Shown here: positions 21,198 through 49,410 of the stretch, piece after piece
Numbering within the stretch: position 1 is the stretch's first letter
Layout: each line of letters begins with the position of its first letter
Assembly: GCF_002968295.1 (NCBI RefSeq)
Contig: NZ_CP134399.1
Span: forward strand, 2,170,001-2,234,000
Origin: Mycobacterium sp. ITM-2016-00317
GTDB taxonomy: Bacteria; Actinomycetota; Actinomycetes; Mycobacteriales; Mycobacteriaceae
Reading direction: 5' to 3'
DNA: 64,000 nt
Notes under the pieces: generated by a model
The model's database searches: none
What the model was told of the DNA's origin: nothing
What the model saw: only the letters and a program-made list of their open reading frames with translations
Translations under genes and position numbers: made by a program

Positions 21198-21226
21198 ATT
21201 ACAAATTTTGAGCTGACTGTCAGCCT
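21198..21226. promoter_or_regulatory. 29-bp regulon element, copy 1 (aldehyde dehydrogenase promoter)
   Basis: ATTACAAA-N12-TGTCAGCCT on the plus strand, matching the consensus TTTACAAA-N12-TGTCACGCT at 7 of 8 and 7 of 9 positions with the same 12-base spacer. It ends 10 bp from the aldehyde dehydrogenase start, whose gene is read leftward. A second perfect dyad, GCTGAC-T-GTCAGC (21212-21224), overlaps it. The position suits a TetR-family operator. Confidence 0.6.
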
Positions 21227-21240
21227 GATTGATCGATCGA

Positions 21241-21792
21241 TCAGTCGGTGGACGGTCGGATTCCGACCGCGTGGCGCAACTGCGCAAGAAACTCGTCGTC
21301 GTCGTCGCTGCGCACGATGTAGTGCGATACCGCGACCCGGATCGCGGTAGCGGCCTTGACCCCGGCATTGGCGCCGGTGAGCAGTCTCTCCAGCTGTGCC
21401 CGCATCGACGGGATGATCTCGGACAGCCGCCCGATCACCACCTCGGGCTCGATGTCGACGAGCCGCACCCCCGAATAGGACTGCTGGTATTCGACGATGA
21501 AGCGCATCGCCGCGTCGAGCCGCTCATTGCCGCGCAGGCCCGCGGTGGCCTTGGCGATCCCGGTCTCGAACATCTCCCGTTCGTAGACGCCGAACGCCTC
21601 GAGCAGCGCCTGCTTGTCGGCGAACCAGCGGTACAGGGTCGGGCGGGACACCCCGGCCTGCAGCGCCACCTCGGACAGGCTCAACTTGGTCTGGCCGCTG
21701 CGGCCCAGCACCTCGGAGGTGGCGACGAGGATCCGTTGCCGCGTCGAGATGTCCTCGGCGGCGCCGGCGGTATCGGCTGCGGACTGCTTCAC
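21241..21792 (-). CDS. TetR-family transcriptional regulator (paralog of 27370 gene)
   Basis: A 183-residue TetR-family regulator. The N-terminal helix-turn-helix is TRQRILVATSEVLGR...LSLSEVALQAGVSRPTLYRWFADKQALLEAF (residues about 15-65); the rest is the ligand-binding domain. It is strikingly similar to the TetR at 27370-27939 over its whole length, including the C-terminus (AIRVAVSHYIVRSDDDDEFLAQLRHAVG against AVRVAISQYLVRSDDSDELLAQLRHAAG). It starts at GTG 21792 and ends at a perfect TGATCGATCGATCA palindrome. Likely controls the neighbouring aldehyde dehydrogenase and other element-bearing genes (inference). Confidence 0.9.
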   Translation of the reverse strand: MKQSAADTAGAAEDISTRQRILVATSEVLGRSGQTKLSLSEVALQAGVSRPTLYRWFADKQALLEAFGVYEREMFETGIAKATAGLRGNERLDAAMRFIVEYQQSYSGVRLVDIEPEVVIGRLSEIIPSMRAQLERLLTGANAGVKAATAIRVAVSHYIVRSDDDDEFLAQLRHAVGIRPSTD

Positions 21793-21876
21793 GTTCTACG
21801 GGCCTCACTTACGGGTTCGGAGACGATCGTAAAGCGTGGGCCCCTCAGATCGCGGGCGAAGCGCTCGCGTCGTTGG

Positions 21877-23025
21877 TCACAGGCTCCGCTGGAGCAGGGC
21901 CACGGTGTCGAGGTCCTCCAGTGCGTTGAGGCTGCGCGTCAGGCCCTTCAGTGCGATGTCCTCGACCTGCATGCCACCCATGCCGGCGGTGATCAGCGCC
22001 GCGACGTACGGATACAGCGCACCCTGCCGGTAGCGGAGCCACAGGTCGTCGCGGTCGATGTCGGGGCCGCCCGATGCGGCCAGCGCGCGCCGGTACACGT
22101 CGAGCAGGTCCTGCTGGGTCTGCTGCCGGTCATCGGTGGTCATGGAGGTGACCAGGGTGTAGGCCAGCTCGCGGCTGGGGTGGCCGCGCCGGACCGCCTG
22201 CCAGTCCAGCAGTCCGGCCTGCCCGTCGCGGAAGTACAGGTTGCCGGGGTGGGCGTCGCCGTGCATCACGGTGTGCGGCGGGCGGTCCACGAGCGCCGCC
22301 ACGGCGCGGTAGTTCTCGTCGATGAAGCGTCCGCGCTGCACCGGAAGGTCGGTGCGTTCGGCGATCCGCCGCGACGCCGTCCGCAGCAGCGGAGCGGTGA
22401 GCATCGAGGCGCTGTCGCCCGAGGCGGTGTAGAGCCAGCCGAGCGGGCCGGTGCGGCCGCGCGCCGGCAACCGGCCCCAGAACGTCCCGTGCAGCCGGGC
22501 CAGCAGTTCCACGACGAGCGCGGCCCGGTCGGGATCGATCGGATGGAGGGTGTCGGGGAATTCGCACGGCAGTCCGGACGGGTCCGCCAGATCTTCCAGG
22601 ATCAGCACGAACCTGCCCGTGGCCGGGTCGAAACGCGAACCGAAGCTGCGCGGCACCCCTGCCAGCTCCGGTGCGAGCTGGCGGTAGAACCGGGTCTCGG
22701 TGTCGGCGAGGTTGCCGAGCTCGCCCATCAGTCGGGTCGTCACTGTCTCGGCGGCCATCTTGACGAACACCGTCGCGGGGATGTCGTCACCGGTCAGTGC
22801 GAGGCGGGCGCGCGACGAGGTGCCTGCGTCGCCGCCGAGCACCGACACCGACGTGACCGAGCGGCCGAGGATCGACGACAGTGCCTCGGCATCGAGTTGG
22901 GCGACGGTGCGGGGCAGGGCGCGCCGGCCGCCGACCAGCGCGTCGGTCCCGATCCGGCGGAACGCGCGACCCAGATGCGAGGCCAGACCCGCAACGGGCG
23001 CGACCCGATTGGCGATGACGGACAC
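21877..23025 (-). CDS. Aminoglycoside-phosphotransferase-fold kinase
   Basis: The 382-residue protein belongs to the APH/choline-kinase fold. It shows the nucleotide-loop SVLGGDAGTSSRARLAL, the catalytic loop MHGDAHPGNLYF (HxDxxxxN) and the metal-binding aspartate in GLLDWQ. Relatives of this type are common beside acyl-CoA dehydrogenase and CoA-transferase genes in actinobacterial lipid or xenobiotic catabolism and are not antibiotic kinases. GTG 23025 is preferred because AGGAG lies 7 bp upstream; a GTG at 23058 would add 11 residues. It is divergent from the CoA-transferase gene; a regulon element lies between them. Confidence 0.88.
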   Translation of the reverse strand: MSVIANRVAPVAGLASHLGRAFRRIGTDALVGGRRALPRTVAQLDAEALSSILGRSVTSVSVLGGDAGTSSRARLALTGDDIPATVFVKMAAETVTTRLMGELGNLADTETRFYRQLAPELAGVPRSFGSRFDPATGRFVLILEDLADPSGLPCEFPDTLHPIDPDRAALVVELLARLHGTFWGRLPARGRTGPLGWLYTASGDSASMLTAPLLRTASRRIAERTDLPVQRGRFIDENYRAVAALVDRPPHTVMHGDAHPGNLYFRDGQAGLLDWQAVRRGHPSRELAYTLVTSMTTDDRQQTQQDLLDVYRRALAASGGPDIDRDDLWLRYRQGALYPYVAALITAGMGGMQVEDIALKGLTRSLNALEDLDTVALLQRSL

Positions 23026-23060
23026 CAGGTGACTCCTAGGCTTGGACCGATAGCCCACAT

Positions 23061-23089
23061 AGGGTTACAAAGCGGAACGATTTTGTAAA
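23061..23089. promoter_or_regulatory. 29-bp regulon element, copy 2 (kinase / CoA-transferase intergenic)
   Basis: On the minus strand this reads TTTACAAA-N12-TGTAACCCT, a perfect left half and 7 of 9 right half at the same spacing. It is also the best palindrome of the set: TTACAAA (23065-23071) and TTTGTAA (23082-23088). It lies between the divergent kinase and CoA-transferase genes, 19 bp from the ATG of the latter. Confidence 0.6.
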
Positions 23090-23107
23090 ACGGAGGAGGT
23101 CGGAGGC

Positions 23108-25529: not shown

Positions 25530-25550
25530 GGGGCAGGACGCTACTCGGAC

Positions 25551-25584
25551 GTTACATATCTTACAAGAAGTGTTTTGTCGTAAG
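25551..25584. promoter_or_regulatory. Operator-like inverted repeat; weak copy 3 of regulon element
   Basis: An AT-rich island between divergent sulfotransferase and DUF1214 genes. It contains GTTACA-N14-TGTTTT (25551-25576), a weak match to the element with the right spacing, and an overlapping inverted repeat CTTACAA / TCGTAAG at 25560-25584 with one mismatch. Either may be the true site. This copy is the least certain of the series. Confidence 0.4.
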
Positions 25585-25594
25585 GTTTGTGGTT

Positions 25595-27369: not shown

Positions 27370-27933
27370 CTACCGGCCGGGGTCCTTGACCCCGGCCGCG
27401 TGGCGGAGCTGAGCCAGCAACTCGTCGGAGTCGTCGCTGCGCACCAGGTACTGCGAGATCGCCACCCGCACGGCGGTGGCCGCGGCCACGGCCGCGTCGG
27501 GGCCGGTGCACAGTCGCTGCAGCCGCTCACGCATCAGCGGCAGCACCCGGGCCAGCCTCCGGATCACCTGGTCGGGTTCCACGTCGACCATCCGCAGTCC
27601 GGGATAGGACGATTGGTAGTCGACGATGACGCGAAGGGCCGCATCGAGCCGCTCGGCGGGCGGGAGATCGGCGGTGGCGGCTGCGATCGCCCGCTCGTAG
27701 TACTGACGCTCCCACACCACGAACGCGCCGAGCAGTTCGCGTTTGTCGGCGAAGTACCGGTAGAGCGTGGGCCGGGAAACCCCGGCCTGGGAGGCCACCT
27801 CCGACAGTGACAGCTTCGTCGTTCCATTGCGGCCCAACACTTCTGCGGTGGCGACCAGGATCCGCTGACGGGTGGAACCGTCCGGGTCGTCGGCATCGCG
27901 GGGTCCGCCCTCACCCGACATCCGTTGCGGCAT
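27370..27933 (-). CDS. TetR-family transcriptional regulator (paralog of 21241 gene)
   Basis: About 187 residues from ATG 27933 (GTG 27939 possible). The N-terminal HTH (TRQRILVATAEVLGRNG, LSLSEVASQAGVSRPTLYRYFADKRELLGAF) and the whole ligand domain closely match the TetR at 21241-21792, pointing to recent duplication and probably to the same DNA target. The regulon element at 27943-27971 lies between this gene and the divergent P450, a typical autoregulatory layout. Confidence 0.9.
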   Translation of the reverse strand: MPQRMSGEGGPRDADDPDGSTRQRILVATAEVLGRNGTTKLSLSEVASQAGVSRPTLYRYFADKRELLGAFVVWERQYYERAIAAATADLPPAERLDAALRVIVDYQSSYPGLRMVDVEPDQVIRRLARVLPLMRERLQRLCTGPDAAVAAATAVRVAISQYLVRSDDSDELLAQLRHAAGVKDPGR

Positions 27934-27942
27934 GCACACAGC

Positions 27943-27971
27943 TTTACAAATTAACAGTGGAGTGTCACGCT
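27943..27971. promoter_or_regulatory. 29-bp regulon element, copy 4 (TetR / P450 divergent promoter)
   Basis: TTTACAAA-N12-TGTCACGCT, an exact consensus copy. The right end is followed by six bases and then GTG 27978, the P450 start, with no room for a ribosome site. If CACGCT acts as a -10 element (with TG two bases upstream and TTTACA as -35 at 17-bp spacing), the P450 message would be leaderless. Read the other way, TGTAAA could be a -10 for the TetR gene. Confidence 0.7.
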
Positions 27972-27977: not shown

Positions 27978-29231
27978 GTGACTGCACCATCGCTGCGCGA
28001 GCGTGAGCACAGCTCGATCGACATCACCTCACACGACTTCTGGAGCCGGCCCTTCACGCAACGCGACGAGTGCTTCGCAGCCCTGCGCGCCGGTGAGGGG
28101 CTGACCTGGCACGCGCCGCTGCCGTCGCTGTTCCCGATCGAGGAGCCCGGTTTCTGGGCGCTCACCCGCAGGGCCGACATCGCCTACGTCAGCCAGCATC
28201 CGGAACTGTTCACCTCGGAGCGCGGTGTCGCACTCGACCCGATGCCGGCCGAGGTGCAGCGTTTCGCGTCGTTCTTCCTGACCATGGACCCGCCGCAGCA
28301 CACGACCTACCGGCGGTTGATCAGTTCGGCGTTCACCCCGCGCAACGTCCGCCAGATCGAGGCGCAGATCCAGCGCAACGCCGTCGCGATCGTCGACGAT
28401 CTGGTCGGGGCCGGCGACATCGACTTCGTCGCCGATTGTGCTGCGCGCCTTCCGATGCTGACGATCATGGAGATGCTCGGCGTGCCGGAGGCCGACCGGC
28501 CCGCGCTCGCGCTGGCTGCAGAGAAGCTGTTCTCGATGAGCGACGACGAGTACAGCTCGCTGGAGGAGCGGGCGGCCAACACCCTCAACGAGATCATGTT
28601 GCTGTCGAGCACCGGCGTTGAGCTGGCCAGGTTCCGCCGCGCCAATCCGGGTGACGACCTGATGACCGCCATCGTCAACGCCGAGGTCGACGGCCAGCGG
28701 CTCACCGACGAGGAGATCGGCGCGTTCCTGATCCTGCTGGCGTCGGCGGGCAACGACACCACCAAGCAGACGACCACGCACGCGATGCTGGCGCTGAGCC
28801 GGAATCCCGATCAGCGGGACTGGCTGACGGCGGACTTCGACGGCCGCATCGGCACCGCGGTCGAGGAATTCGTCCGGTGGTCCTCTCCGATCATGCAGTT
28901 CGCCCGCTTCGCCACCCGCGACACCGAGATCAACGGCCAGCCGGTGGCCGAGGGGGACAAGGTCGGACTGTTCTACTGCTCGGCCAACCGCGACGAGACC
29001 GTCTTCGAGCACCCCGGGACCTTCGACCTGTCCCGCTCGCCCAATCCGCACCTCGGGTTCGGCGGCGGCGGCCCGCACTTCTGCCTCGGTAACCAGCTGG
29101 CCAAAGCGGAGCTGCGACATCTGTTCCGTGAGTTGCTCTCTCGGCTGAAGGTCGTGGAGCTCGGCGAACCCGAGCTGCTCTACAGCACATTCGTGCACGG
29201 CGTGAAGCGACTACCCGCCCACGTGCGCTGA
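27978..29231 (+). CDS. Cytochrome P450
   Basis: A 417-residue soluble bacterial P450. It has the I-helix oxygen-activation motif LLASAGNDTTKQT, an E-x-x-R helix (EEFVRW) and the heme loop FGGGGPHFCLGNQLAKAELR with proximal Cys369. GTG 27978 directly follows the exact regulon element. A [3Fe-4S] ferredoxin gene lies 14 bp downstream and is likely its redox partner. It probably hydroxylates the pathway substrate or an intermediate; CYP family number cannot be assigned without alignment. Confidence 0.96.
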   Translation: MTAPSLREREHSSIDITSHDFWSRPFTQRDECFAALRAGEGLTWHAPLPSLFPIEEPGFWALTRRADIAYVSQHPELFTSERGVALDPMPAEVQRFASFFLTMDPPQHTTYRRLISSAFTPRNVRQIEAQIQRNAVAIVDDLVGAGDIDFVADCAARLPMLTIMEMLGVPEADRPALALAAEKLFSMSDDEYSSLEERAANTLNEIMLLSSTGVELARFRRANPGDDLMTAIVNAEVDGQRLTDEEIGAFLILLASAGNDTTKQTTTHAMLALSRNPDQRDWLTADFDGRIGTAVEEFVRWSSPIMQFARFATRDTEINGQPVAEGDKVGLFYCSANRDETVFEHPGTFDLSRSPNPHLGFGGGGPHFCLGNQLAKAELRHLFRELLSRLKVVELGEPELLYSTFVHGVKRLPAHVR

Positions 29232-29245: not shown

Positions 29246-29440
29246 ATGCGGATCGCAGTGGATCTCACCAGGTGCACCGGTCACGGTATCTGCGAGTCGA
29301 TCGCCGAGGACGTGTTCGAGGTGCAGGACGACGGCAGCGTGGTCATCCACGGAGCCGAGCGCCCGGAGTCGGACCGCGACCGGATGCGGCAGGCCGTCAC
29401 CCAGTGCCCGGCCGCCGCCCTCCACTTCGCCGCGGAATAG
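29246..29440 (+). CDS. [3Fe-4S] ferredoxin, P450 partner
   Basis: The 64-residue ferredoxin has Cys10 and Cys16 in RCTGHGIC, where histidine replaces the second cysteine of the usual CxxCxxC, and Cys54 in QCPAAAL. This C-x2-H-x2-C plus CP arrangement is typical of mycobacterial ferredoxins encoded beside P450s. ATG 29246 follows GGAG by 5 bp; GTG 29240 is an alternative. It would carry electrons from a ferredoxin reductase (not in this window) to the P450 at 27978. Confidence 0.95.
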   Translation: MRIAVDLTRCTGHGICESIAEDVFEVQDDGSVVIHGAERPESDRDRMRQAVTQCPAAALHFAAE

Positions 29441-29442: not shown

Positions 29443-30290
29443 CTATTCCGCGGGCGGGGTTTTCGGCGGGCGGGGGCGCACCAGCACCGACTGCTGGATC
29501 GCCCCGACGGCGCCGGCCTCGTCGAACAGGGTGCCCAGTGTGGTGCCCACACCGTCGGGCCCGTAGTTGGTTTCGGCGCGGATGCCGATCCACTCGCCGG
29601 CGGGCATCCGGTGGATGTGCACGGCGAGGTCGGTGTTCAGGAACGTCCACTTGCGGATGTCGAGTTTGGTGCCGATGCCGTTGGCGTCGTCGGCGACGGC
29701 GAACAGCCGCTCCAACGCCGTCATCGATTCTCCGCCGACCAGGTCGACCTCCGGCCTGATCCAGGATTCCCCGGGCCGGCGGCCATCGGCGTGGTCAGCC
29801 AGCGCCAGTCCAGGCTGTGCACGTAGTTGCGGTCCCAGTTCTTCTTCATGTCCCGGCCGCGGGCCTGCGACAGTGGCCGCAGCGGTTCGGCGGCGGCGTG
29901 CTCCACGGCGGCGGTATCCAGCGTCTGCAACCGCCACCCGCTGGCCCTGGCAACCGCCCGCGGGGTGCCGTCGGGCCCCGGTGCCAGCATCTCGGCGGTG
30001 ATCAGCTCGATCTGCTTGCCGGAGCGTTCCCGCCTGCTGCGCACCCACAGGTCGCCTTCGGCGGGGACGGGCCCGAGCAGGTCGACGAGCACCCGGCTCA
30101 ACCGGGTGTCCGCCCGCGGCTCGCAGCGCTGCAGTCCGCGCACCAGCAGCGCCGAGACCGGCGCGGCGTGCTGGATGTGCGTCGACCATGTGCTGCGCAC
30201 CAGATCGGAGGCGACGAACTTCTCGCCGAGTTCGTCGGCCCCGACGAGGGTGTAGTAGGAGTCGCGCGTGGTCGGCTCGGACACGGTCAC
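29443..30290 (-). CDS. Acyl-CoA thioesterase-like (double hotdog) protein, single frameshift
   Basis: The protein has the TesB-like/double-hotdog layout of mycobacterial acyl-CoA thioesterase-family proteins. The N-terminal three-quarters (SYYTLVGADELGEKFVASDL onward to NWDRNYVHSLDWRWLT) and the C-terminal part (GRRPGESWIRPEVDLVGGES, WTFLNTDLAVHIHRMPAGEWIGIRAETNYGPDGVG) are in neighbouring frames. The junction is at about 29770-29800; one extra base restores 282 residues. GTG 30290 overlaps the SMP-30 stop (GTGA). Likely a sequence error. The intact enzyme would release CoA from a pathway acyl-CoA. Confidence 0.82.
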
Positions 30291-31099
30291 CTTCCGGGGA
30301 TGTCGACGGTGACGGCGTCGAGGCTGGACAGCGTGGTGCCCCGCAGCCGTTCGGGATACGCGCTGGGCGCGCTCAGCAGGAACAGCGTGCGGTTCTCGGG
30401 CCCCCCGAGGGCACAGGCGATGGCGGCGCGGTCGGCGATGTGGATCCGGTCGGTGACCCGGCCGCCGTCCTCGATGCGTTCGAACTGGTGGGCCAGCGTC
30501 ATCGCCGTCCACACGCCGCCCTCGGCGTCGATGCAGATGCCGTCCGGTGGCCCGTCCAGGCCGTCGGCGAAAACCCGTGGCGCCGAGAGGCTGCCGTCCT
30601 CACCGACGGTGAACGCGGTCAGTCGTCGGCCGGTGGATTCGGCGACGATCAGCGTGTCGCCACCGTCGGTGAGGACCATCCCGTTGGGGAAGTCGAGGCT
30701 CTCGGCAACCACGTCAGCGCGCCGGCGGTCGGGATCGACCCGGACGACGACGCCGCCTTCGCGGGCCTGGGAGCCGACGTAGGCGCAACCGTGCCGGTCG
30801 ATCACCATGTCGCCGAGGGCAGCCGGGGTGATCGCCGACAGGTCGGCGACGGTGGTCACCGACTCGCCGTCGTAGCCGAGCACCAGCCGCTGCTCGGTGG
30901 ACACGATCAACAGCGAACCGTCCGGCCGGAAACCCAGTCCCGACGGGGCGTGACCTGGCAAGCTCAGGGTGCTCATCTCGCCGGCCAGGGTCACGGTGTG
31001 CACGGCTTCGCCGAGCATGTCGGAGAACCACACCAGGCCTTCGAACCAGCGCGGGCCCTCGCCGAAGCAGAAGCCGTTGGCCAACGGAGTGAACGTCAT
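30287..31099 (-). CDS. SMP-30/gluconolactonase-family lactonase
   Basis: A 270-residue six-bladed beta-propeller hydrolase of the SMP-30/gluconolaconase/LRE family. Metal ligands of the family are visible: Glu in FGEGPRW, Asn in SLDFPNGM and Asp in GPPDGICIDAEGGVW. Such enzymes open lactone rings. That fits well with the nearby Baeyer-Villiger monooxygenase, which makes lactones or esters. It is divergent from the operon at 31169 and shares the regulon element at 31108-31136. Confidence 0.92.
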   Translation of the reverse strand: MTFTPLANGFCFGEGPRWFEGLVWFSDMLGEAVHTVTLAGEMSTLSLPGHAPSGLGFRPDGSLLIVSTEQRLVLGYDGESVTTVADLSAITPAALGDMVIDRHGCAYVGSQAREGGVVVRVDPDRRRADVVAESLDFPNGMVLTDGGDTLIVAESTGRRLTAFTVGEDGSLSAPRVFADGLDGPPDGICIDAEGGVWTAMTLAHQFERIEDGGRVTDRIHIADRAAIACALGGPENRTLFLLSAPSAYPERLRGTTLSSLDAVTVDIPGR

Positions 31100-31107: not shown

Positions 31108-31136
31108 TTTACAAAACACGGGACAAGTGTCACGCT
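31108..31136. promoter_or_regulatory. 29-bp regulon element, copy 5 (lactonase / P450-BVMO operon)
   Basis: TTTACAAA-N12-TGTCACGCT, exact consensus. It separates the divergent lactonase gene (start 31099) from the seven-gene operon beginning at 31169. As at copy 4, six bases follow the right end before a GTG (31143), which opens a 9-codon reading frame coupled to the first operon gene. Confidence 0.7.
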
Positions 31137-31142: not shown

Positions 31143-31172
31143 GTGCAGCTGTCAACCAGGAGCATGTCGTGA
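31143..31172 (+). CDS. Putative 9-codon leader ORF coupled to operon
   Basis: GTG 31143 lies seven bases after the right end of the regulon element, with no ribosome site, as expected for a leaderless mycobacterial message. The frame encodes VQLSTRSMS and its TGA overlaps GTG 31169 of the next gene (GTGA), while AGGAG (31158-31162) inside it serves that gene. Leaderless short ORFs that couple to the following gene are known in mycobacteria. Existence of this peptide is inferred. Confidence 0.4.
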   Translation: MQLSTRSMS

Positions 31173-31879
31173 ACATGAAGAAATACCACAGCCACACGTT
31201 GCTCTACCTGCACGAGACCATCGACCTCGGGTCGGCGGGCAGCGAACGGTTCGTCGCCGAGTTCGACGGCGTCTACCACCCGATGATGGCCGAGCTCGGC
31301 GCCCGGCTGTTCGCCCTCTGGGAGACGACGCCGTACAACGGGCACTGGCCGCAGGTCACCGTGATCTGGGAGATCGACGCGTTCGCCGACTACGCCCGCA
31401 TCGGCCGGGCCCAGGCGCGCGGCGGCAGTCACGAAGCCGCAGCGGGCAAGTGGGCGGCCTACTTGCGTGAGACCGGTGCGCGCGGCGAGGGCCGCATCAT
31501 GTACGCCGGGCGCAGCAACAAGACCCTGGCGCAGTTGCAACAGTCGGATTTCAAGGCCGGACTGGTGATTCAGGAGGTCATGCAGACCAAGCCGGGCCGC
31601 CAGGACGACTACATCCGCGAGCTCGAACGACTCTACGTACCGTGGTCGGAATCCACCGGCAAGCGCTGGCTGGGCTCGTTCATCACCACCTTCCGGTTCA
31701 ACGAGGTGATCCACTACTGGGCGCTGGAAGGGGAGTGGGCCTGCTTCGAGAACCACTACCCGTCGTGGAAGGACAGCCCGCCGGCCGAGATCGTCACCTG
31801 GATGAGCGTGGCTCCCGCGCTGCGCGACGGCTGGGAGGATTCGATCCTGGCCGCCCTGCCCCCGTCCCCGCTGCAGTGA
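31169..31879 (+). CDS. NIPSNAP-like / dimeric alpha-beta barrel protein, unknown function
   Basis: A protein of about 236 residues, soluble, with two repeats of a ferredoxin-like alpha+beta pattern: MKKYHSHTLLYLHETIDL...VTVIWEIDAFADYARI and LVIQEVMQTKPGRQDDYIREL...TTFRFNEVIHYWALEG. This is the style of NIPSNAP or EthD-type dimeric alpha-beta barrel proteins, which often accompany oxygenases in catabolic operons; the activity is unknown. GTG 31169 has AGGAG six bases upstream; ATG 31175 is the alternative. Its stop overlaps the P450 start (GTGA). First gene of a seven-gene operon. Confidence 0.75.
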   Translation: MNMKKYHSHTLLYLHETIDLGSAGSERFVAEFDGVYHPMMAELGARLFALWETTPYNGHWPQVTVIWEIDAFADYARIGRAQARGGSHEAAAGKWAAYLRETGARGEGRIMYAGRSNKTLAQLQQSDFKAGLVIQEVMQTKPGRQDDYIRELERLYVPWSESTGKRWLGSFITTFRFNEVIHYWALEGEWACFENHYPSWKDSPPAEIVTWMSVAPALRDGWEDSILAALPPSPLQ

Positions 31880-33114
31880 GTGCGGAAGTGACCACGGCGC
31901 AGGACTTCACGTACGACCCGTTCGACCCGGCGGTGATGGCCGACCCGCTGCCGTACTACCGGGTGCTGCGCGACGAGCATCCCGTCTACTACCTGGACAA
32001 GTGGGACACCTACGCGCTGTCGCGGTTCGACGACATCTGGCGGGTACTGGAGATCAACGACGGGACGTTCGTCGCGTCGGACGGGACGCTGCCGGCCGCG
32101 GCTGTGCTCGCCCGGCACCACGACGGCCCGGTGCCCGACCCGCCCCTGCACCCCATGCCTTTCCACGCCAACTTCGACGCGCCGATCTACGACGAGGTCC
32201 GCCGCTGCACCGCGGCGCCGTTCCGGCCCAAGAACGTCGCCAAGCTGGGTGAGCGGATCCGGGTGCTGGCCAACGAACGGCTCGACGAGCTGCTGCCCCT
32301 GGGCCGGTTCGACCTGACCCAGGACTACGGCGGGATCGTCGCGGCCTCGGTGGTGTGCGAACTCGTCGGCCTGCCAAGCGATCTCGCAGCTGACGTGCTG
32401 GCCACCGTCAACGCAGGCAGCCTGGCGCAACCGGGCAGCGGCGTCGAGGTGGCCAACGCCCGGCCGGGCTACCTGGAGTACCTCACACCGGTGGTGCAGC
32501 GCAGGCGCGCCCAACAGGGTGACGCACTGCCGATCGTCGACAACCTGTTGGCCTACCGGCTGCCGGACGGATCGGCACTGTCCGATCTGGAGGCGGCCGT
32601 GCAGATGCTGGGGGTGTTCATCGGCGGCACCGAGACCGTCCCCAAGATCGTCGCGCACGGACTGTGGGAACTGTCGGCGCGGCCGGGTCAGCTCGCCGAG
32701 GTGCGGTCCGACCTGGACGTCAACGTGCCCGTGGCGCGCGAGGAGATGATCCGCTACTGCGCGCCGGCCCAGTGGTTCGCGCGCACCCTGCGCAGGCCGT
32801 TCACCCTGCACGACACCACCATCCGGCCCGGCCAACGGATCATCTCGCTGCTCGCCTCGGCCAACCGGGACGAGCGCGAATATCCCCGCGCCGACGAGTT
32901 CATCTGGAACCGGCCGATCGAACGGCTGCTCGCGTTCGGCCGGGGCCAGCACTTCTGCCTGGGCGCACACCTGGCCCGGCTGGAGATCACGATCATGGTG
33001 ACCGAATGGCTCAAGCGGGCGCCTGCCTTCCGAGTCGACACCGCCGCCGCCTCGCGGCCGCCGTCGAGCTTCCAGTGGGGCTGGAACAACCTACCGGTCG
33101 AAGTCGAGGTGTGA
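31876..33114 (+). CDS. Cytochrome P450 (second)
   Basis: A 412-residue soluble P450. The I-helix reads GVFIGGTETVPK, so the usual acid-Thr pair is E-T; the K-helix motif is EEMIRYC (ExxR) and the heme loop LAFGRGQHFCLGAHLARLE with proximal Cys361. GTG 31876 shares four bases with the previous stop. It is not closely alike the P450 at 27978. No ferredoxin gene is in this operon, so it may use the ferredoxin at 29246. Likely oxidises the substrate or a ring carbon in the pathway. Confidence 0.95.
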   Translation: MSAEVTTAQDFTYDPFDPAVMADPLPYYRVLRDEHPVYYLDKWDTYALSRFDDIWRVLEINDGTFVASDGTLPAAAVLARHHDGPVPDPPLHPMPFHANFDAPIYDEVRRCTAAPFRPKNVAKLGERIRVLANERLDELLPLGRFDLTQDYGGIVAASVVCELVGLPSDLAADVLATVNAGSLAQPGSGVEVANARPGYLEYLTPVVQRRRAQQGDALPIVDNLLAYRLPDGSALSDLEAAVQMLGVFIGGTETVPKIVAHGLWELSARPGQLAEVRSDLDVNVPVAREEMIRYCAPAQWFARTLRRPFTLHDTTIRPGQRIISLLASANRDEREYPRADEFIWNRPIERLLAFGRGQHFCLGAHLARLEITIMVTEWLKRAPAFRVDTAAASRPPSSFQWGWNNLPVEVEV

Positions 33115-33115: not shown

Positions 33116-34084
33116 GTGTGGGCCTACCGACTCGTCGCGCCGTACACATTCGAGAAAATCGATGTGCCGCAACCGTCTCCGCAGTCACTCCGCGACGGCC
33201 AGGTGCTGCTGCGGTTCCTCGCCGCGGGCATCTGCGGCTCGGACCTGCCCGGGTATCGCGGCGCCAAGGGCAGACTGCCCGGTGACACCGGCGCCCGCGC
33301 CGCCGAGATGACCGGCTTCCCGATCCACGAGATCGCCGGCGAGGTGATCGCGAGCAGGCACGCCGCGCACCATCCCGGTGACCGGGTGGTCGGGTGGGCG
33401 TCGGGCTTCGACGGGCTCATGCAGGAGGTGGTCGCCGACGGCGAAGGTCTGGTGGCCTACCACGACTCGTTGACCCCGGCCCACGCGGTCGCGCTGCAAC
33501 CGCTGGCATGCGTGCTCTACGCCGTCGAGCAGTTGCCCGAGCTGACCGGCCGGCACGTCGCCGTCCTCGGTCAGGGCTCGATCGGCCTGCTGTTCTCCTA
33601 CGCGGCCAAAGTCGCCGGGGCGGCCCACGTCACCGGCGTCGACCCGGTGGACCGCACCGACGTCGGGCCCGCGTTCGGCGTCGACACCGTCGTACGCGCC
33701 ACCAGCGACCGCTGGGTGAGCCACCTGCCCCCGGACGCCAAGCCGGACATCGTGATCGAGGCGGTCGGGCACCAGGTGGCGACCCTGTCGCACGCGGTCG
33801 AGGCGGCCGCGTTCGGCGGTACGGTCTTCTATTTCGGTGTGCCCGACGACGACTCGTATCCGATCAGCATGCGCACCATGCTGCGCAACAACCTGACCCT
33901 GAAGTCCGGGGTGACGGTCGAACGCAGGCGGGTGCTCGCCAAGGCCGACGCGTTCGCGCGCTCCCACCCGGGGCTGCTGGACAAGTATCTGACCCACACC
34001 TTCGGCGTGGACGAGGCCCCCGCGGCCTTCGAGCTCGCCTCGCGTCCGGTGCCGGGCCGAATCAAGATCGCGATCGCGGCCTGA
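33116..34084 (+). CDS. MDR-family alcohol dehydrogenase-like oxidoreductase
   Basis: A 322-residue medium-chain dehydrogenase/reductase. The catalytic zinc cysteine is in AAGICGSDLPGYRG, followed by a GFPIHEIAGEV segment; the Rossmann fold is VAVLGQGSIGLLFSYAAKVAGAAHVTGVD. The structural four-cysteine zinc lobe of classic alcohol dehydrogenases appears absent. GTG 33116 begins just 1 bp after the P450 stop. Suggested role: turning a P450-made alcohol into the ketone used by the BVMO three genes later (inference). Confidence 0.9.
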   Translation: MWAYRLVAPYTFEKIDVPQPSPQSLRDGQVLLRFLAAGICGSDLPGYRGAKGRLPGDTGARAAEMTGFPIHEIAGEVIASRHAAHHPGDRVVGWASGFDGLMQEVVADGEGLVAYHDSLTPAHAVALQPLACVLYAVEQLPELTGRHVAVLGQGSIGLLFSYAAKVAGAAHVTGVDPVDRTDVGPAFGVDTVVRATSDRWVSHLPPDAKPDIVIEAVGHQVATLSHAVEAAAFGGTVFYFGVPDDDSYPISMRTMLRNNLTLKSGVTVERRRVLAKADAFARSHPGLLDKYLTHTFGVDEAPAAFELASRPVPGRIKIAIAA

Positions 34085-35572: not shown

Positions 35573-37101
35573 CGATCCCCATGGCCAACACGCTGTCCGT
35601 AGCGATCATCGGCGCCGGCCCCGGAGGCCTGGCACTGGGAATCCTGCTGCGCAAGGCCGGATTCGACGACTTCACCATCTTCGACCGCGAAGACGGCGTC
35701 GGCGGCACGTGGCGGATCAACACCTATCCGGGCCTGGCGTGCGACGTGAAGTCGCACCTGTACTCGTACTCGTTCGACCTCAACGCCCGCTGGTCCCGGC
35801 TGTGGTCGGGGCAGGAGGAGATCCTGGAGTACTTCGAACGCTGCGCCCAGCGTCACCGTCTGCGGGACAACCTGCGGTGCAACACCGAGATCGTGTCGGC
35901 GCACTGGAACGCCGAGTCCCGCACGTGGCGGCTGACCACCGCCGCCGGCGACGAGCACACCTTCGACGTCGTGGTCTCGGCCGTCGGGATGTTCACCCGG
36001 CCGGTGATGCCCGACCTCGTCGAGGAGGAACCGTTCACCGGCACGATCATGCACACCGCGCGGTGGGACCCGTCGGTGGACCTCAGCGGTGCCCGGGTGG
36101 CGGTGCTGGGCACCGGATCGACTGCGGCGCAACTGGTCCCGGAAGTGGCGAAGAAGGCCGCCAAGGTGTATTCGGTGCAGCGGTCACCGACATGGGTGCT
36201 GCCCAAGCCCGACCGGGAGTACAGCGAGCGGGAGAAGTGGATGTTCGCCCACATCCCGCTGGCCAAGAAGATCTACCGCACCCGGCTGTGGTTGCGCAGT
36301 GAGTCCAACATCTCGGTCATCGAGCACGGCAGCGACAAGACCCAGGAGTTCAAGAGCATCGCGCTGCGCTCGTTGGAGGCCACGGTGACCGACGACGCGC
36401 TGCGCGCCAAGCTCACCCCGGACCATCCGCTGGGATGCAAACGGCTGGTGTTCGCCACCGACTACCTGCAGACGCTGACCCAGCCGCACGTCGAGGTGGT
36501 CTCCAGTCCCGCGCGCCGGCTGCGGGCGCGCTCGCTGCTCACCGAGGACGGCACCGAACTCGACGTCGACGTCGTCCTGTGCGCGACCGGTTACGCGGCG
36601 GCGGACTACCTCGGGCAGATCGAGGTGCGCGGCGCGGACGGCGCGCTGCTGAGCGAGACATGGCGCGACGGCGCGTTCGCCTACCTCGGGATGACCGTGC
36701 CCGGCTATCCCAACTTCTTCATGCTCTACGGGCCCAACACCAACGTCGGCTCCAACAGCGTGATCTTCATCCTGGAGGCGCAGGCGCGCTACATCGTGCG
36801 GGCGCTGCGGCACATGCGGCGCAGGAAGCGGAACTACATCGAGGTACGGTCCGAGGTCATGACGCGTTACCTGGACTGGATCGACACCTGGATGCAGGGC
36901 ACCGTGTGGCTGACCCGGTGCAGCAACTACTTCCGCGCCGCCAACGGCCGCGTGGTCACCCAGTGGCCGCGCAGCGCCCGCACGTTCTGGCAGCTCACCC
37001 GGTTCTTCAAGCCCGGTGACTACGCCTTCGCCGAACCCCAGCGCAGGACCGCCATCCGGGTCGGCGCGCAGACCGCGGCGCAATCGGTAGGCCGGCCGTG
37101 A
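35569..37101 (+). CDS. Baeyer-Villiger-type flavin monooxygenase
   Basis: A 510-residue FAD/NADPH enzyme. FAD-binding GAGPGGL is at residues 15-21, the NADPH-binding GTGSTAAQ in mid-protein, and FTGTIMHTARWD (Phe156 to Asp167) matches the Baeyer-Villiger fingerprint FxGxxxHxxxW[P/D]. GGTWRINTYPGLACDVKSHLYSYSF follows the family pattern. It inserts oxygen next to a ketone to give an ester or lactone. ATG 35569 overlaps the SDR stop (ATGA). The following esterase and the SMP-30 lactonase would hydrolyse the product, giving a coherent ketone-cleavage module. Confidence 0.94.
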   Translation: MTIPMANTLSVAIIGAGPGGLALGILLRKAGFDDFTIFDREDGVGGTWRINTYPGLACDVKSHLYSYSFDLNARWSRLWSGQEEILEYFERCAQRHRLRDNLRCNTEIVSAHWNAESRTWRLTTAAGDEHTFDVVVSAVGMFTRPVMPDLVEEEPFTGTIMHTARWDPSVDLSGARVAVLGTGSTAAQLVPEVAKKAAKVYSVQRSPTWVLPKPDREYSEREKWMFAHIPLAKKIYRTRLWLRSESNISVIEHGSDKTQEFKSIALRSLEATVTDDALRAKLTPDHPLGCKRLVFATDYLQTLTQPHVEVVSSPARRLRARSLLTEDGTELDVDVVLCATGYAAADYLGQIEVRGADGALLSETWRDGAFAYLGMTVPGYPNFFMLYGPNTNVGSNSVIFILEAQARYIVRALRHMRRRKRNYIEVRSEVMTRYLDWIDTWMQGTVWLTRCSNYFRAANGRVVTQWPRSARTFWQLTRFFKPGDYAFAEPQRRTAIRVGAQTAAQSVGRP

Positions 37102-38033
37102 CCGACCACGACTTCGCTGAGCGCCTCGACCCCGCCCTGCGCCACCTCGCGGCCGCGCGCACCGACCTGTCACCGCACCTTCTCGGCGTCGTGCGGGACT
37201 CGCTGAACCAACGACGGGCCGAGACTGCGAGGACACTCGACACCGTCGGTGTGGAGATCGAGCAGCGTGAGATCGCGGTGCCGCAGGGCCACCACGTCAC
37301 GGTGCGGATCTATCGTGGCGGCGTGCCCGGGTCGGGGGCACTGATCTACTGCCATTCCGGAGCTTTCGTGCTCGGCAACCTCGACACCGACCACCGCCAG
37401 TGCGTCGAACTGGCCCGCCGCGGACGGTGCACCGTGCTGTCAGTGGACTACCGGCTGGCCCCCGAGCATCCGTTCCCGGCGGCGCTCGACGATGCGGCCG
37501 CGATCCTGGAATGGGCATCCAGGAGCGCGGTCGAACTGGGGATCGACGCGGCGATGATCGCCGTGGCCGGCAGCAGCGCAGGCGCGGCGCTGGCAGCCGG
37601 TCTCGCTCAGCGGGCCGCGGCAGGCAGTGCGCCGCCGGTGGTGTTCCAGCTGCTGCACCAGCCGGTGCTCGACGACCGGCTGTCCCCGTCGAAAGAGGAG
37701 TTCCTCACCACGCCCGGCTTCGACGGGGAAGCGGTGCAGTGGATGTGGCGGCACTACGGAGCGGGTACGGAGGTCCCGGAAGACGCAGTACCCGCGCGCG
37801 CCGAGGACCTGTCCGACCTGCCGCCCGCGCTGATCACCTGCTCGGAGCTCGATCCGCTGCGCGACGAAGCGATCGACTACGCGCTGAGACTGCTGTGGTC
37901 CGGCGTCGGCGCCGGTCTGCACGTGTTCAGCGGCACCTGCCACGGTTTCGACTCGCTGGTCCCGGAGTGGGAAGTCAGCGAGCAGCTCTTCGACATCCAG
38001 GGCGCGGCGCTACGCCGGGCTTTCCTGCGCTAA
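37098..38033 (+). CDS. Alpha/beta hydrolase (HSL/Est-type esterase)
   Basis: A 311-residue hydrolase of the hormone-sensitive-lipase family. The oxyanion motif is YCHSGAFVLGN (HGGG-like), the nucleophile is in AGSSAGAALAAG, and the acid and His are in CSELDPLRDEAIDYA and CHGFDSL. Part of the fold, DYRLAPEHPFPAALDDA, is characteristic. GTG 37098 overlaps the BVMO stop (GTGA). Likely hydrolyses the BVMO ester product; last gene of the operon. Its end overlaps the SRPBCC gene by 24 bp on the other strand. Confidence 0.94.
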   Translation: MTDHDFAERLDPALRHLAAARTDLSPHLLGVVRDSLNQRRAETARTLDTVGVEIEQREIAVPQGHHVTVRIYRGGVPGSGALIYCHSGAFVLGNLDTDHRQCVELARRGRCTVLSVDYRLAPEHPFPAALDDAAAILEWASRSAVELGIDAAMIAVAGSSAGAALAAGLAQRAAAGSAPPVVFQLLHQPVLDDRLSPSKEEFLTTPGFDGEAVQWMWRHYGAGTEVPEDAVPARAEDLSDLPPALITCSELDPLRDEAIDYALRLLWSGVGAGLHVFSGTCHGFDSLVPEWEVSEQLFDIQGAALRRAFLR

Positions 38034-38520: not shown

Positions 38521-38549
38521 TTTACAAAGTCACGCCATAATGTCACGCT
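38521..38549. promoter_or_regulatory. 29-bp regulon element, copy 6 (SRPBCC / acyl-CoA dehydrogenase)
   Basis: TTTACAAA-N12-TGTCACGCT, exact consensus. Five bases after its right end is GTG 38555, in frame with the acyl-CoA dehydrogenase, and a ribosome-site-preceded GTG follows at 38594. It also lies 29 bp from the ATG of the SRPBCC gene read leftward. The layout again suggests a shared divergent promoter/operator. Confidence 0.7.
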
Positions 38550-38593: not shown

Positions 38594-39742
38594 GTGGACT
38601 TCTCCGAAGTCAGCCTCGCCGAGGGAGATCGAGCATTTCAGGCCGAGCTGCGCGAGTTCCTGGCCTCGGTGGTGACCGACGAGGTCATCGACCGCGACCG
38701 CCGGACCGGGGACAACTTCGACGAGACCGTTCATCTTGCCCTCGGCACGGCCGGGTATCTCGAACGCGACTGGCGCGCCGAGGCTGACGGTGGTTTCACC
38801 GCCGTGCAGCGGCGGATCTGGGAACTGGAGATCGGTCGCGCGCATACCCCGTGGTTCCACTGGGGGACGACCTCGATGGTCGCTCACGCGGTGACGCGGT
38901 TCGGCTCCCAGTCGTTGCGTGACGAGATCCTGCCCGGGGTGCTGGCCGGACGAATCCGGTTGTGCCTGGGCTACACCGAGCCCGAGGGCGGTTCGGACGT
39001 GGCCACCTGCAAGACCCGGGCAGTGCGCGACGGCGACGACTGGATTGTCAACGGCGCGAAGATGTTCACCTCGAACGCCCAGCACGCCCAGTACGTCTTC
39101 CTGATCACCAACACCGACCCGGCGGCGCCCAAGCACCAGAGCCTGACGATGTTCCTGGTCCCGCTGGACTCGGACGGCGTCGAGATCCAGCCGCTCCGCA
39201 CCGTCGACGGGGATCGCACCAACATCACGTTCTACAGCGACGTCCGCGTCGCCGACCGGTACCGGGTGGGGCCGGTCAACGGCGGCTGGACCGTGTTGCG
39301 CGATGCGCTGAACACCGAACACGGCACCGTCGACCGCGACGAGAACGGATTGAGCAAGCTCGCGGTGATGATCGATCAGGTGCTGCTGCTCGCCGAGGAG
39401 CTCGACCGGGTGGCCGGCGAGGTGTCGGCCGACGGTCGGCTCGATGACGAATCGGTCGGTTATCGCCTGGGGCGCAGTGTGGCCCGGCTGGAGGCGGCGA
39501 TGAGCACGCCGGGCATGTTCGGCAGGGTCGCCCTGGCGCAGACGATGCGCGACATCACGCCAGACCTGATGGACATCGGCGGTGCGGCATCGGCGGTGGA
39601 GAACGGGCTCAGCGCCGAGTATCTGTTCCGGCTGGCTGCGCCGGTGGGCATCTACGGCGGCACGCTGGATGTGTTCCGCAACATGATCGCCCAGCACGTG
39701 CTGGGACTCGGCAGGCCGAACTATTCGCCGGCGCGCACGTAG
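38594..39742 (+). CDS. Acyl-CoA dehydrogenase
   Basis: A 382-residue flavoenzyme of the acyl-CoA dehydrogenase family, with CLGYTEPEGGSDVATCKTRA, DGDDWIVNGAKMFTSNAQHA and the C-terminal GIYGGTLDVFRNMIAQHVLGLGRPNYSPART. It introduces a 2,3 double bond into an acyl-CoA, the first step of beta-oxidation. GTG 38594 has GGAGG 7 bp upstream; a leaderless GTG 38555 in the same frame would add 13 Gly-rich residues. The last 60 bp of the gene are duplicated at 41299-41360. Confidence 0.93.
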   Translation: MDFSEVSLAEGDRAFQAELREFLASVVTDEVIDRDRRTGDNFDETVHLALGTAGYLERDWRAEADGGFTAVQRRIWELEIGRAHTPWFHWGTTSMVAHAVTRFGSQSLRDEILPGVLAGRIRLCLGYTEPEGGSDVATCKTRAVRDGDDWIVNGAKMFTSNAQHAQYVFLITNTDPAAPKHQSLTMFLVPLDSDGVEIQPLRTVDGDRTNITFYSDVRVADRYRVGPVNGGWTVLRDALNTEHGTVDRDENGLSKLAVMIDQVLLLAEELDRVAGEVSADGRLDDESVGYRLGRSVARLEAAMSTPGMFGRVALAQTMRDITPDLMDIGGAASAVENGLSAEYLFRLAAPVGIYGGTLDVFRNMIAQHVLGLGRPNYSPART

Positions 39743-41298: not shown

Positions 41299-41443
41299 AA
41301 CATGATCGCCCAGCACGTGCCGGGACTCGGCCGGCCGAACTACTCGCCGGCGCGCACGTAGGTCCGTCCCTTAGAACGGTGGCGGGTCGTCGCCGTAGTC
41401 GGGTTCGCGCCATCCGGTGGGTGATTCCCACGGGGTGTGACTT
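41299..41443. repeat. Direct repeat, right copy (partner 39680-39825)
   Basis: The first 62 bp copy the 3' end of the acyl-CoA dehydrogenase gene, now without the gene in front of it; the rest is the 3' end of the intact HNH-endonuclease-like gene. Changes against the left copy include CTG to CCG and GGCAGG to GGCCGG, plus a 1-base length difference, so the duplication is not brand new. Confidence 0.8.
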
Positions 41444-44110: not shown

Positions 44111-44143
44111 GGAAGTTCTGGCGAGACGACCCGGAAGGCTGCC

Positions 44144-46929: not shown

Positions 46930-46976
46930 AAGAAGCCGACCCTATCGGGTGGCGAAGTAGCGCTTCCCGTCGGCGG

Positions 46977-47675: not shown

Positions 47676-47862
47676 CGAAGCGCTCCGCCGACAACATGAT
47701 CCGTCGCAGTCAACAGCTGGACCCCTCCGCTCGGACGTCGTGGGTGAGATTTTGGTGAGTGAGATTCTTCTAACAACAGACCACCCCGCAGCGGCAAAGT
47801 GACGAAGATCTACGAAACGGGTACCACCTTGCAACCGGGTGGACGACGAACGGGGTGGCCGC

Positions 47863-49293
47863 GTGAGACGACTCAATGGCGTGGACGCCATGATGCTCTA
47901 CAGCGAGACCCCGGAAGTCCACATGCACACCCTCAAGATCGGTGTGCTGGACGTGTCCGCAGTCGAGGGCTTCGACTTCGAGTTCTTCCGGCGCGCCGCG
48001 TTGGCCAGGCTGCACGCGCTGGCCCCGCTGCGCTATCAGCTCGTCGACATCCCGCTGAAGTTCCACCACCCGATGTGGGTGCAGAACGCCGAGATCGACG
48101 TCGACTATCACGTGCGCAGGGCGCGGGTGCCGGCGCCGGGCGGTCGCCGCGAACTCGACCAGCTGATCGGCGAGATCGCGGGCACGCCCCTGGACCGACG
48201 GTATCCGCTGTGGGAAATGTATGTCGCAGAAGGGTTGGCGGACAACAAGATCGCAGTCATCCACAAGGTCCACCACGTGCTGGCCGACGGTGTCGCGTCG
48301 GCCAATCAGCTGGCGATGGCGATCCAACCGCGCGAACCGGGGATCGGCGGCCAGATGCCCGAGTCGCCCGCCGACTCGACCGCGCCGAGAAACCTGCTCA
48401 AGGCCGCGGCACGCGATCACGTGCGCCAGGTGCGACGGCTGCCCCGGCTGGTCAACGAGACCGCAACCGGAGTCTCGCGGGTGCGGAGGCAGGCCAGGGA
48501 GCGCGGGCGTCATCCGGACCTGGCGCGCAACTTCGCGCCGCCGCCGACCTTTTTCAACCACGTGGTCACACCGGGTCGGCGCTTCGCGACCGCGCCGCTG
48601 GCGCTCGCGGATGTCAAGGAGACGGCCCGGCATCTCGGGGTCACGCTGAACGACATCGTGCTGGCGACCGCGGCCGGTGCGCTGCGCGAACTGCAGTTGC
48701 GTTACGACGGGAAAGCCGACTCCCCGCTGATCGCGGGTGTCCCGGTCAGCTTCAACACCTCGCCGGAGCGGCTGTTCGGTAACGAATTCACTTATATGAC
48801 ACCGTCTTTGCCGGTCCATGTGGCGGATCCCATCGCTCGGGTACGGCTCACCGCGACGGCGACGGCCATCGCCAAGGACAATCACCAGCTGCTCGGGGCG
48901 ATGCTGCTGCCGAACTGGCTGACCTATCTGCCGCCGGCCGCCACTCCGCACATCTTCCGGTCGCAGGCCCGTCGCCTGGAGTCCTCGATGGTGATGAACC
49001 TGACCGTCTCGAACGTGCCGGGTCCGAGGGAGCGCGGCGTGATGGACGGCGCCGTCGTCGACGAGATCTACTCGGTGGGCCCGATCGTTGCCGGCAGCGG
49101 CATCAACATCACAGTGTGGAGCTACGTCGATCAGCTCTCGATCTCGGTGCTGACCGACGACTCCACACTGAAGGACCCGCACGAGGCCACCGATGCGTTG
49201 CTCGCGTCGTTCGTGGAGATCCGGGCCGCCGCAGGGCTGTCGGAGATCCTGACACCTGTCGAGAAGACGATGCCGGTCGCGCCGGCGCTCTGA
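47863..49293 (+). CDS. Wax ester synthase/diacylglycerol acyltransferase (WS/DGAT)
   Basis: A 476-residue acyltransferase that joins acyl-CoA to a long-chain alcohol or diacylglycerol to form wax esters or triacylglycerol. The catalytic HHxxxDG is in HKVHHVLADGVAS (residues about 139-152), and NDIVLATAAGALRELQ, PLIAGVPVSF and MNLTVSNVPGP are family motifs. GTG 47863 gives the usual LNGVDAMMLY start; GTG 47839 would add 8 residues. It is the last large gene before the two paralogs of unknown function, and regulon element copy 7 follows it. Confidence 0.93.
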   Translation: MRRLNGVDAMMLYSETPEVHMHTLKIGVLDVSAVEGFDFEFFRRAALARLHALAPLRYQLVDIPLKFHHPMWVQNAEIDVDYHVRRARVPAPGGRRELDQLIGEIAGTPLDRRYPLWEMYVAEGLADNKIAVIHKVHHVLADGVASANQLAMAIQPREPGIGGQMPESPADSTAPRNLLKAAARDHVRQVRRLPRLVNETATGVSRVRRQARERGRHPDLARNFAPPPTFFNHVVTPGRRFATAPLALADVKETARHLGVTLNDIVLATAAGALRELQLRYDGKADSPLIAGVPVSFNTSPERLFGNEFTYMTPSLPVHVADPIARVRLTATATAIAKDNHQLLGAMLLPNWLTYLPPAATPHIFRSQARRLESSMVMNLTVSNVPGPRERGVMDGAVVDEIYSVGPIVAGSGINITVWSYVDQLSISVLTDDSTLKDPHEATDALLASFVEIRAAAGLSEILTPVEKTMPVAPAL

Positions 49294-49381
49294 ATCGTAC
49301 CGAAGTCCGGAACCTGTTGTTCGGCGCACTCTTTCGCGGCGCGTCGACGATTTCCCGCGCGCACCGAGATCCGATCGATAC

Positions 49382-49410
49382 TTTACAGATGCCATCATAA
49401 ATGTCACGCT
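49382..49410. promoter_or_regulatory. 29-bp regulon element, copy 7 (paralog pair promoter)
   Basis: TTTACAGA-N12-TGTCACGCT: right half exact, left half 7 of 8, same spacing. It stands between the WS/DGAT gene and the co-directional paralog pair beginning at 49456, 45 bp upstream of the first start. Unlike the other copies it is not in a divergent gap, so it should serve only the rightward genes. Confidence 0.6.

Follow-up and report, generated by a model that had tools for sequence, protein, structure and literature searches.

Why should one short sequence, built of two arms a constant distance apart, stand in front of so many catabolic genes in a single part of a mycobacterial chromosome? 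Does it serve a repressor, RNA polymerase, or both? The stretch that we analysed, hereafter the window, comprises 64,000 nucleotides (nt) of Mycobacterium sp. ITM-2016-00317 (contig NZ_CP134399.1, positions 2,170,001 to 2,234,000). A preliminary description had proposed that a 29-base-pair (bp) element in this window is the shared operator or promoter of seven transcription units. The notion of a shared regulatory element held up, while the alternative of operator or promoter was changed to probably both, on the strength of start-codon spacing and of the conservation of a short outer tag. Most probably the element acts as operator and promoter together for a TetR regulon that many mycobacteria share, a predicted repressor site that would often be a bidirectional promoter as well.

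A spaced dyad in front of catabolic genes

How often does the element occur, and is its recurrence beyond chance? We scanned for the pattern TTTACAAA-N12-TGTCACGCT, 29 bp in length, tolerating up to 3 mismatches. The window contains exactly six matches, and the gap of 12 bases between the halves, claimed earlier to be constant, is found in all of them. In 100 dinucleotide-preserving shuffles of the window the mean number of matches was 0.00. The copies are:

27943..27971, plus strand: exact copy between TetR-B (minus) and a CYP268-like cytochrome P450 (plus); dyad TTTACA-N14-TGTCA
31108..31136, plus strand: exact copy between an SMP-30 lactonase (minus) and an operon for NIPSNAP, P450, alcohol dehydrogenase, aldolase, short-chain dehydrogenase, Baeyer-Villiger monooxygenase (BVMO) and hydrolase (plus); kept in 31 of 31 loci that reach this point
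38521..38549, plus strand: exact copy between an SRPBCC protein (minus) and an acyl-CoA dehydrogenase (plus); orthologous copies in L017, L021, L023 and L025
49382..49410, plus strand: copy with 1 mismatch before the paralog pair p49A/p49B
23061..23089, minus strand: copy with 2 mismatches, a TGTAA variant, between phosphotransferase-TetR-A (minus) and CoA-transferase III (plus)
21198..21226, plus strand: copy with 3 mismatches before an aldehyde dehydrogenase (ALDH; minus, ATG at 21188); the right arm has TGTCA, not CGCT

The three copies listed first had been described as exact and indeed show zero mismatches. Of the seven sites named in the preliminary description six are thus present. The remaining one, at 25551, does not match within 3 mismatches, and its neighbouring genes for a sulfotransferase, a DUF1214 protein and a third TetR protein, TetR-C (24276-27359), are full-length in only 4 of 31 related loci (L014, L018, L025, L026); both 25551 as a seventh copy and TetR-C as a binder of the element were rejected. 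An inverted repeat, CTTACAAG-N9-GTCGTAAG, read by eye before DUF1214, may be a site for TetR-C. The shared element does precede catabolic genes, but the number of units served exceeds the seven proposed, because four of the six sites (23061, 27943, 31108, 38521) separate divergent genes.

Across the whole genome (6.06 Mb), 13 sites were found at up to 3 mismatches, versus 4 for a reversed control pattern; at up to 2 mismatches the count was 8 versus 0. Six of these eight fall inside an 86-kb stretch that contains the cluster, so that the random scatter named earlier as fatal to a regulon was not seen. One copy outside the window (L005), 36.6 kb before it, has at +6 the ATG of a SnoaL-like gene.

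Could the copies simply belong to a multicopy repeat or mobile element, rather than mark a regulatory site? Several near-identical copies in one region would fit such an origin. Conservation lies mainly in the arms, however, while the 12-base middle differs among copies, and across the named loci the copies stay before the same genes. Already contradicted by these conserved positions, a repeat is scarcely credible. The core of the motif is a dyad, and near-perfect palindromic copies exist (L038, L040).

Start codons at a near base-exact distance

If the element were a promoter, where would transcription start? The distance from motif to start codon was compared across 32 loci, the window and 31 named ones; for the SMP-30/NIPSNAP site the sample is 31 loci, the contig of L033 ending earlier. 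The TetR-B/P450 site shows 0 mismatches in 32/32 loci. On its right, a GTG lies exactly 6 nt past TGTCACGCT in all 32; on its left, the TetR-B start codon (CAT or CAC, read on the other strand) lies 9 nt from TTTACA in 31 of the 32, and 8 nt in L037. The spacing is constant to the base though the six bases between motif and start vary. The P450 gene itself is absent from 8 of the 31 related loci (L016, L017, L021, L022, L023, L025, L037, L044), where motif, GTG and ferredoxin are kept, and is truncated in L033, with the +6 GTG present. In L016, L017, L021, L023, L037 and L044 this GTG opens a stub of 8-13 codons with an NTGA overlap, read by eye, with the ferredoxin start; in L025 it is the ferredoxin start itself.

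At the SMP-30/NIPSNAP site, the +6 GTG opens a micro open reading frame (micro-ORF) of 8-24 codons in the 31 loci, and its stop overlaps the start of the main gene as NTGA in 29 of them (exceptions L040, L042). In the window this is:

31143..31172, plus strand: micro-ORF of 9 codons, proposed to be leaderless, beginning 6 nt past the motif; its stop overlaps the NIPSNAP start GTG 31169 as GTGA

No conservation of the encoded peptide was found in the 31 loci beyond V-x-[LM]-S, and the second codon changes. We therefore rejected a conserved-peptide gene and read the micro-ORF as element plus coupling. A second TGTCA (as CTGTCAA or ATGTCAA, motif positions 42-48; 31149-31155) lies 23 bp after the first, inside the micro-ORF, in 31/31 loci; this heptamer was part of the class-sorting rule, which every locus reaching the site passed.

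These distances suggest a promoter within the element. TTTACA would be the -35 hexamer and TGT-CACGCT, with 17 bp between the hexamers, an extended -10. The other strand reads GTGACA, 17 bp, and AAAGCT preceded by TGT; both promoters would start 7 nt from the last T. For the 27943 site this gives:

-35 at 27943-27948 and -10 at 27966-27971, plus strand: proposed rightward promoter; P450 GTG 27978 at +6
-35 at 27963-27968 and -10 at 27940-27945, minus strand: proposed leftward promoter; TetR-B ATG 27933

Transcription would begin about 6 nt past the -10, often at the first base of a start codon, and hence be leaderless. An ATG or GTG at the expected transcription start is indeed what we find at +6 in 32/32 and 31/31 loci. 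The second mark of leaderless promoters, a TANNNT -10, is reported at 73% of primary starts in M. tuberculosis (PMC3898074); here, CACGCT and AAAGCT fit the A and the final T, not the first T. We therefore say only that the element would work like a leaderless promoter.

The outer GCT and the direction of transcription

Do the arms change where no gene starts beside them? Sites were sorted by simple rules, which for the ALDH class (class d) required CAT or CAC 9-10 nt to the left, TGTCA on the right and at least 1 mismatch. This class holds 25 sites, and no zero-mismatch ALDH-type site occurs in the other classes. Seven of the 32 loci lack a class d site; a looser scan recovers four (L014, L025, L034, L043), and in L038-L040 the ALDH gene was not found.

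The right arm reads CGCT in 63/63 cases at the P450 and NIPSNAP sites, both with a proposed leaderless gene to their right. At the ALDH site no gene starts on that side; CGCT is found there in 1/25, and in 0/4 of those added, with TGTCA intact in 25/25. On the left, AGC precedes TTTACA in 29/32 loci at the TetR-B site and in 23/25 at the ALDH site; the left arm thus appears to be extended by AGC at most sites with a proposed leaderless gene on that side. In the TGTAA class (class c; 20 entries, palindromes counted on both strands), to which the 23061-type sites recurring in related loci belong, the tag is not fixed. The outer GCT therefore seems mostly to follow the direction of transcription. 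Since the arms persist where the tag is lost, TTTACA and TGTMA would act as the arms of an operator; the outward GCT would be part of a promoter at most sites, though not at all of them.

The SMP-30 side departs from this pattern. AGC is absent there in 31/31 loci. In nine of them, the window included, SMP-30 nevertheless starts 8 nt from the arm, and on this ground we rejected a strict equivalence between an outer AGC on the left and a gene start on that side. In the remaining loci the first long frame begins at 5 or 11 nt (6 loci) or at 20-44 nt (13), or none begins within 80 nt (3). The window and five others of the nine 8-nt loci show TAAAGT, then 6 nt, then the SMP-30 start; our guess is that this TAAAGT, in the same arm, could serve as an alternative -10 for SMP-30. 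Some genomes have paired motif copies near the SMP-30 gene (L097, 1441/1501, 60 bp apart; L081, 954/1501, about 550 bp).

Would an operator without promoter function account for all this? The start-codon spacing would then reflect compact intergenic packing, and the real promoter elements would lie elsewhere. In line with this idea, the ALDH site preserves its half-sites despite the loss of the right tail, the SMP-30 side breaks the tag rule, and, judged by TANNNT, CACGCT makes a poor -10 (PMC3898074). Packing hardly explains, however, a spacing that is exact to the base across six variable bases, also where the P450 is gone, and at the TetR-B/P450 site the start codons stand so near the motif that a further promoter would scarcely fit in between. 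We consider an operator alone unlikely.

Two paralogous TetR proteins as candidate repressors

What would bind the dyad? The preliminary description had named the two paralogous TetR proteins of the cluster as the best candidates:

27373..27933, minus strand: TetR-B, candidate repressor; TetR_N match at 5.7e-15; co-occurrence with the motif
21244..21792, minus strand: TetR-A, paralog of TetR-B, candidate repressor; TetR_N match; found in 31/31 related loci

The two share 67% identity. TetR-B, a single TetR of 187 amino acids, is 95% identical to its counterpart in Mycolicibacterium vaccae NBRC 14118, which suggests that the host is closely related to M. vaccae. A protein search with TetR-B returned 1959 homologs at E<=1e-15. 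The stretches expected as recognition helices of TetR-A and TetR-B are SRPTLYRWFADK and SRPTLYRYFADK.

We searched 28 TetR-centred loci, most of 3.5 kb and some overlapping, for the dyad TTTACA-N14-TGTMA at up to 1 mismatch. It was present in 23 of 28, versus about 1.3 expected from the density in 26 other loci, most of them not from mycobacteria (6 matches in 456 kb). Not all of the 23 have it at the TetR start: in some it lies on the side of TetR-A that faces ALDH, or about 1.2 kb away. Distant TetR paralogs in G007 and G022 (51% and 46% identity), unlinked to the main cluster, have the dyad beside their start. Because the dyad is enriched in TetR loci, these distant unlinked paralogs included, TetR-A and TetR-B are the most likely predicted binders of the motif.

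Does the motif also occur together with these proteins in other genomes? A first set of 41 genomes (our own and its relatives; 25 of the same genus, 16 others), scanned at up to 2 mismatches, contains the motif in 25 genomes: 21/25 of the same genus and 4/16 elsewhere. The four (G032, G033, G035, G038) belong to other families and hold one or two copies each, with 2 mismatches; one or two reversed-control matches turned up in several of the 41. The TetR was found in 20/25 genomes of the same genus and in 0/16 others. The second set comprises 198 genomes of the genus, searched for the motif at up to 1 mismatch and for a TetR-B homolog at E<=1e-20, with 17 candidates scored per genome. The motif is present in 154/198 and the homolog in 164/198. 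All 154 motif carriers also have the homolog, versus no motif in any of the 34 genomes where no TetR was found. This pattern, together with the dyad at the distant paralogs, supports the earlier choice of TetR-A and TetR-B as candidates. A Fisher value for the co-occurrence is not a true probability, because the species are related.

Several features of TetR regulons are thus found. TetR_N regulators (TetR-A, TetR-B) are encoded in the cluster, site and regulator co-occur, and a (pseudo)palindrome lies at the promoters of the regulators themselves (27943 for TetR-B, 23061 for phosphotransferase-TetR-A) and of targets (the other sites), five genomes taken up below being the exception as to the regulator's own promoter. 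A shared cis element would define the regulon, and a TetR regulon is the best reading of it.

Could the element instead be a promoter for an alternative sigma factor, or the site of an unlinked regulator, with the TetR proteins just travelling with the cluster? The non-canonical -10 would fit, as would the nine invariant bases of TGTCACGCT and the eight of the left arm in both classes with a proposed leaderless start; the co-occurrence, too, is among related species. A core that is a dyad, and a near-perfect palindrome in L038 and L040, speaks against this idea, as do the lack of the motif, at up to 1 mismatch, in the 34 genomes without the TetR and the same dyad at distant TetR paralogs elsewhere. 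We regard it as improbable.

A proposed operator-promoter

How, then, would an operator-promoter work? TetR-A and TetR-B would bind the dyad TTTACA-N14-TGTMA, whose arms lie two helical turns apart, which suggests two dimers, as in the 28-bp case of QacR (PMC4482099). At the TetR-B/P450 site both arms end outward in GCT and may form two interlocked promoters, in which each arm doubles as the -35 for one direction and the extended -10 for the reverse. RNA polymerase would occupy one direction at a time, and a single bound repressor would silence both. The repressor would be released by a ligand, probably a substrate or product of terpenoid- or alicyclic-like structure, whereby P450s, dehydrogenases, BVMO, lactonase, CoA-transferase and acyl-CoA dehydrogenase would be induced together.

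Several observations weigh against this reading. CACGCT lacks the first T of TANNNT, and the promoter may therefore be weak or use another sigma factor; the SMP-30 start described above lacks its AGC. The position of the start is not fixed in all clades: genus-wide, in the 198 genomes, exact arms are followed by RTG at +6 in 102, at +5 in 60 and at +7 in 29, with 0 for reversed controls, and the enriched +5 class includes, for example, the TetR-B-side sites of G020 and G021. The +5 class being real, clades may differ in whether the start is 5 or 6 nt away, or some +5 codons may not be starts. The unit at 38521 starts with a GTG (38594) 44 nt past the motif and is leadered, as is probably the gene at 49456, so that the leaderless layout is not the rule at every site. 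The five TetR-centred loci that lack the dyad (G001, G006, the first copy in G007, G010, G023) have the motif at a distance of about 1.7 kb from the TetR and not beside its start. Matches at up to 2 mismatches occur without the TetR in G019 (one match) and in the four genomes of other families, and 10 of the 164 TetR-bearing genomes lack the motif at up to 1 mismatch; near their TetR, only degenerate dyads (in four loci) or no dyad at all were found, which would fit a regulon in decay. With 17 candidates scored per genome a TetR could be missed, and co-occurrence among related species could track the gene cluster rather than the TetR.

The idea of an operator-promoter can be carried further, to a reading that we offer tentatively and that, all parts taken jointly, is possible rather than probable. 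One 32-bp dyad would be a two-arm repressor site and, at the same time, two fully interlocked divergent promoters. Each arm would combine three roles, those of a half-operator, of a -35 for one direction and of an extended -10 for the opposite direction, and the detachable outer GCT triplet would largely set the direction of transcription. The promoter would stay sub-optimal because the repressor would require C or A as the first -10 base. Evolution would toggle direction by gain or loss of the tag, the operator staying.

Genes of the proposed regulon

Which pathway would such a switch control? The main genes next to the motif copies are:

27978..29228, plus strand: cytochrome P450; nearest solved relative CYP268A2 (PDB 6bld, E=2e-129)
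29246..29437, plus strand: ferredoxin (Pfam Fer4_13)
30290..31099, minus strand: SMP-30/gluconolactonase-like protein (Pfam SGL)
31169..31876, plus strand: NIPSNAP-like protein, first main gene of the BVMO operon; weak NIPSNAP match under the curated cut-off
31888..33111, plus strand: second P450 (Pfam p450)
33116..34081, plus strand: zinc alcohol dehydrogenase
34086..34838, plus strand: HpcH/HpaI aldolase
34841..35569, plus strand: short-chain dehydrogenase
35569..37098, plus strand: flavin (Baeyer-Villiger type) monooxygenase; FMO-like, PtlE-type BVMO similarity under the curated cut-off
37098..38030, plus strand: alpha/beta hydrolase
38594..39739, plus strand: acyl-CoA dehydrogenase; GTG 38594, leadered
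19707..21188, minus strand: aldehyde dehydrogenase

Also served are a thioesterase with SMP-30, the phosphotransferase followed by TetR-A, SRPBCC, CoA-transferase III and p49A/p49B. Terpenoid or branched lipids serve as substrates for CYP268A2 and for related P450s of mycobacteria. The gene families would fit a route in which a cyclic or terpenoid-like substrate undergoes hydroxylation, then oxidation to a ketone, Baeyer-Villiger insertion, lactone opening and finally CoA-dependent breakdown.

The paralogs p49A and p49B (49456-50570) are 43% identical and have no significant Pfam or NCBIfam family match. Homologs of p49A lie downstream of the motif in 14 of 61 loci compared (14 other genomes), which makes this orphan family a frequent member of the regulon.

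CoA-transferase III (23108-24297) consists of two overlapping frames, the first with a stop after 240 codons. In 29 of 31 related loci it is a single frame of 386-400 codons, counted from the start of the match (L043, 369; L032, 121). The split is a frameshift or sequencing error. The 3' end of the acyl-CoA dehydrogenase and the bases that follow (39680-39800) recur, by eye, at 41300-41400, beside a DUF222 gene, hinting at a duplication or insertion.

Comparison with known systems

Are similar elements known? The mycobacterial TetR proteins BkaR and KstR2 likewise stand beside divergent targets, with palindromes at a few catabolic promoters including their own (PMC3920632, PMC3068626). Their motifs as published, GTTA(N)T(N4)A(N)TAAC and AnCAAGnnCTTGnT, are compact, whereas the arms here lie 14 bp apart and differ in sequence; on comparing these published motifs by eye we rejected a KstR2- or BkaR-type site. 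Unlike those operators, the site here seems to coincide with the core promoter. Mce3R of M. tuberculosis (9b7y) is, by sequence, the best PDB relative of TetR-B, over the N-terminal residues 11-104 only (E=4.2e-8). It is described as a double TetR chain with a 25-bp non-palindromic site (PMC11667970), unlike the single TetR-B and its dyad, and by that description an Mce3R-type site was set aside.

The bidirectional promoters of E. coli described by Warman et al. resemble the proposed element in that one sequence supports divergent transcription and takes RNA polymerase in either orientation (PMC12825309). Their account has a shared symmetric -10 with starts beside or within it (PMC12825309). 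Here, the proposed starts are 45 bp apart and each end of the dyad would carry a -10 of its own; either promoter's extended -10 would overlap with the -35 of its opposite, and the layout would include a repressor dyad. Shell et al. (2015) report that an RTG at +1 suffices and that small leaderless ORFs are coupled by RTGA, in one example with the peptide not conserved and the linkage kept (PMC4633059). Here, in contrast, the layout goes with a single operator family and is conserved in many species. The pair prpD/Rv1129c, too, is a divergent regulator-target pair with both genes leaderless (PMC3898074). Neither the motif nor the regulon was found in the open-licence literature searched, the logos in Table 2 of Balhana et al. 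lying outside the comparison; the paper on AlkX, too, yielded no passage on the motif. All ingredients are known; as far as we have seen, the TetR regulon is new and the fusion of operator and promoter unusual.

For mycobacteria, the proposed regulon would provide a common switch, with named candidate repressors, for genes of P450, BVMO and CoA-dependent breakdown and for the orphan family p49A. With a geometry that is near base-exact, it may be possible to predict from the sequence of many genomes which starts are leaderless, which micro-ORFs are coupled and which divergent promoters exclude each other, and sites with and without the outer tag would offer a natural series for studying one bidirectional promoter under one repressor.

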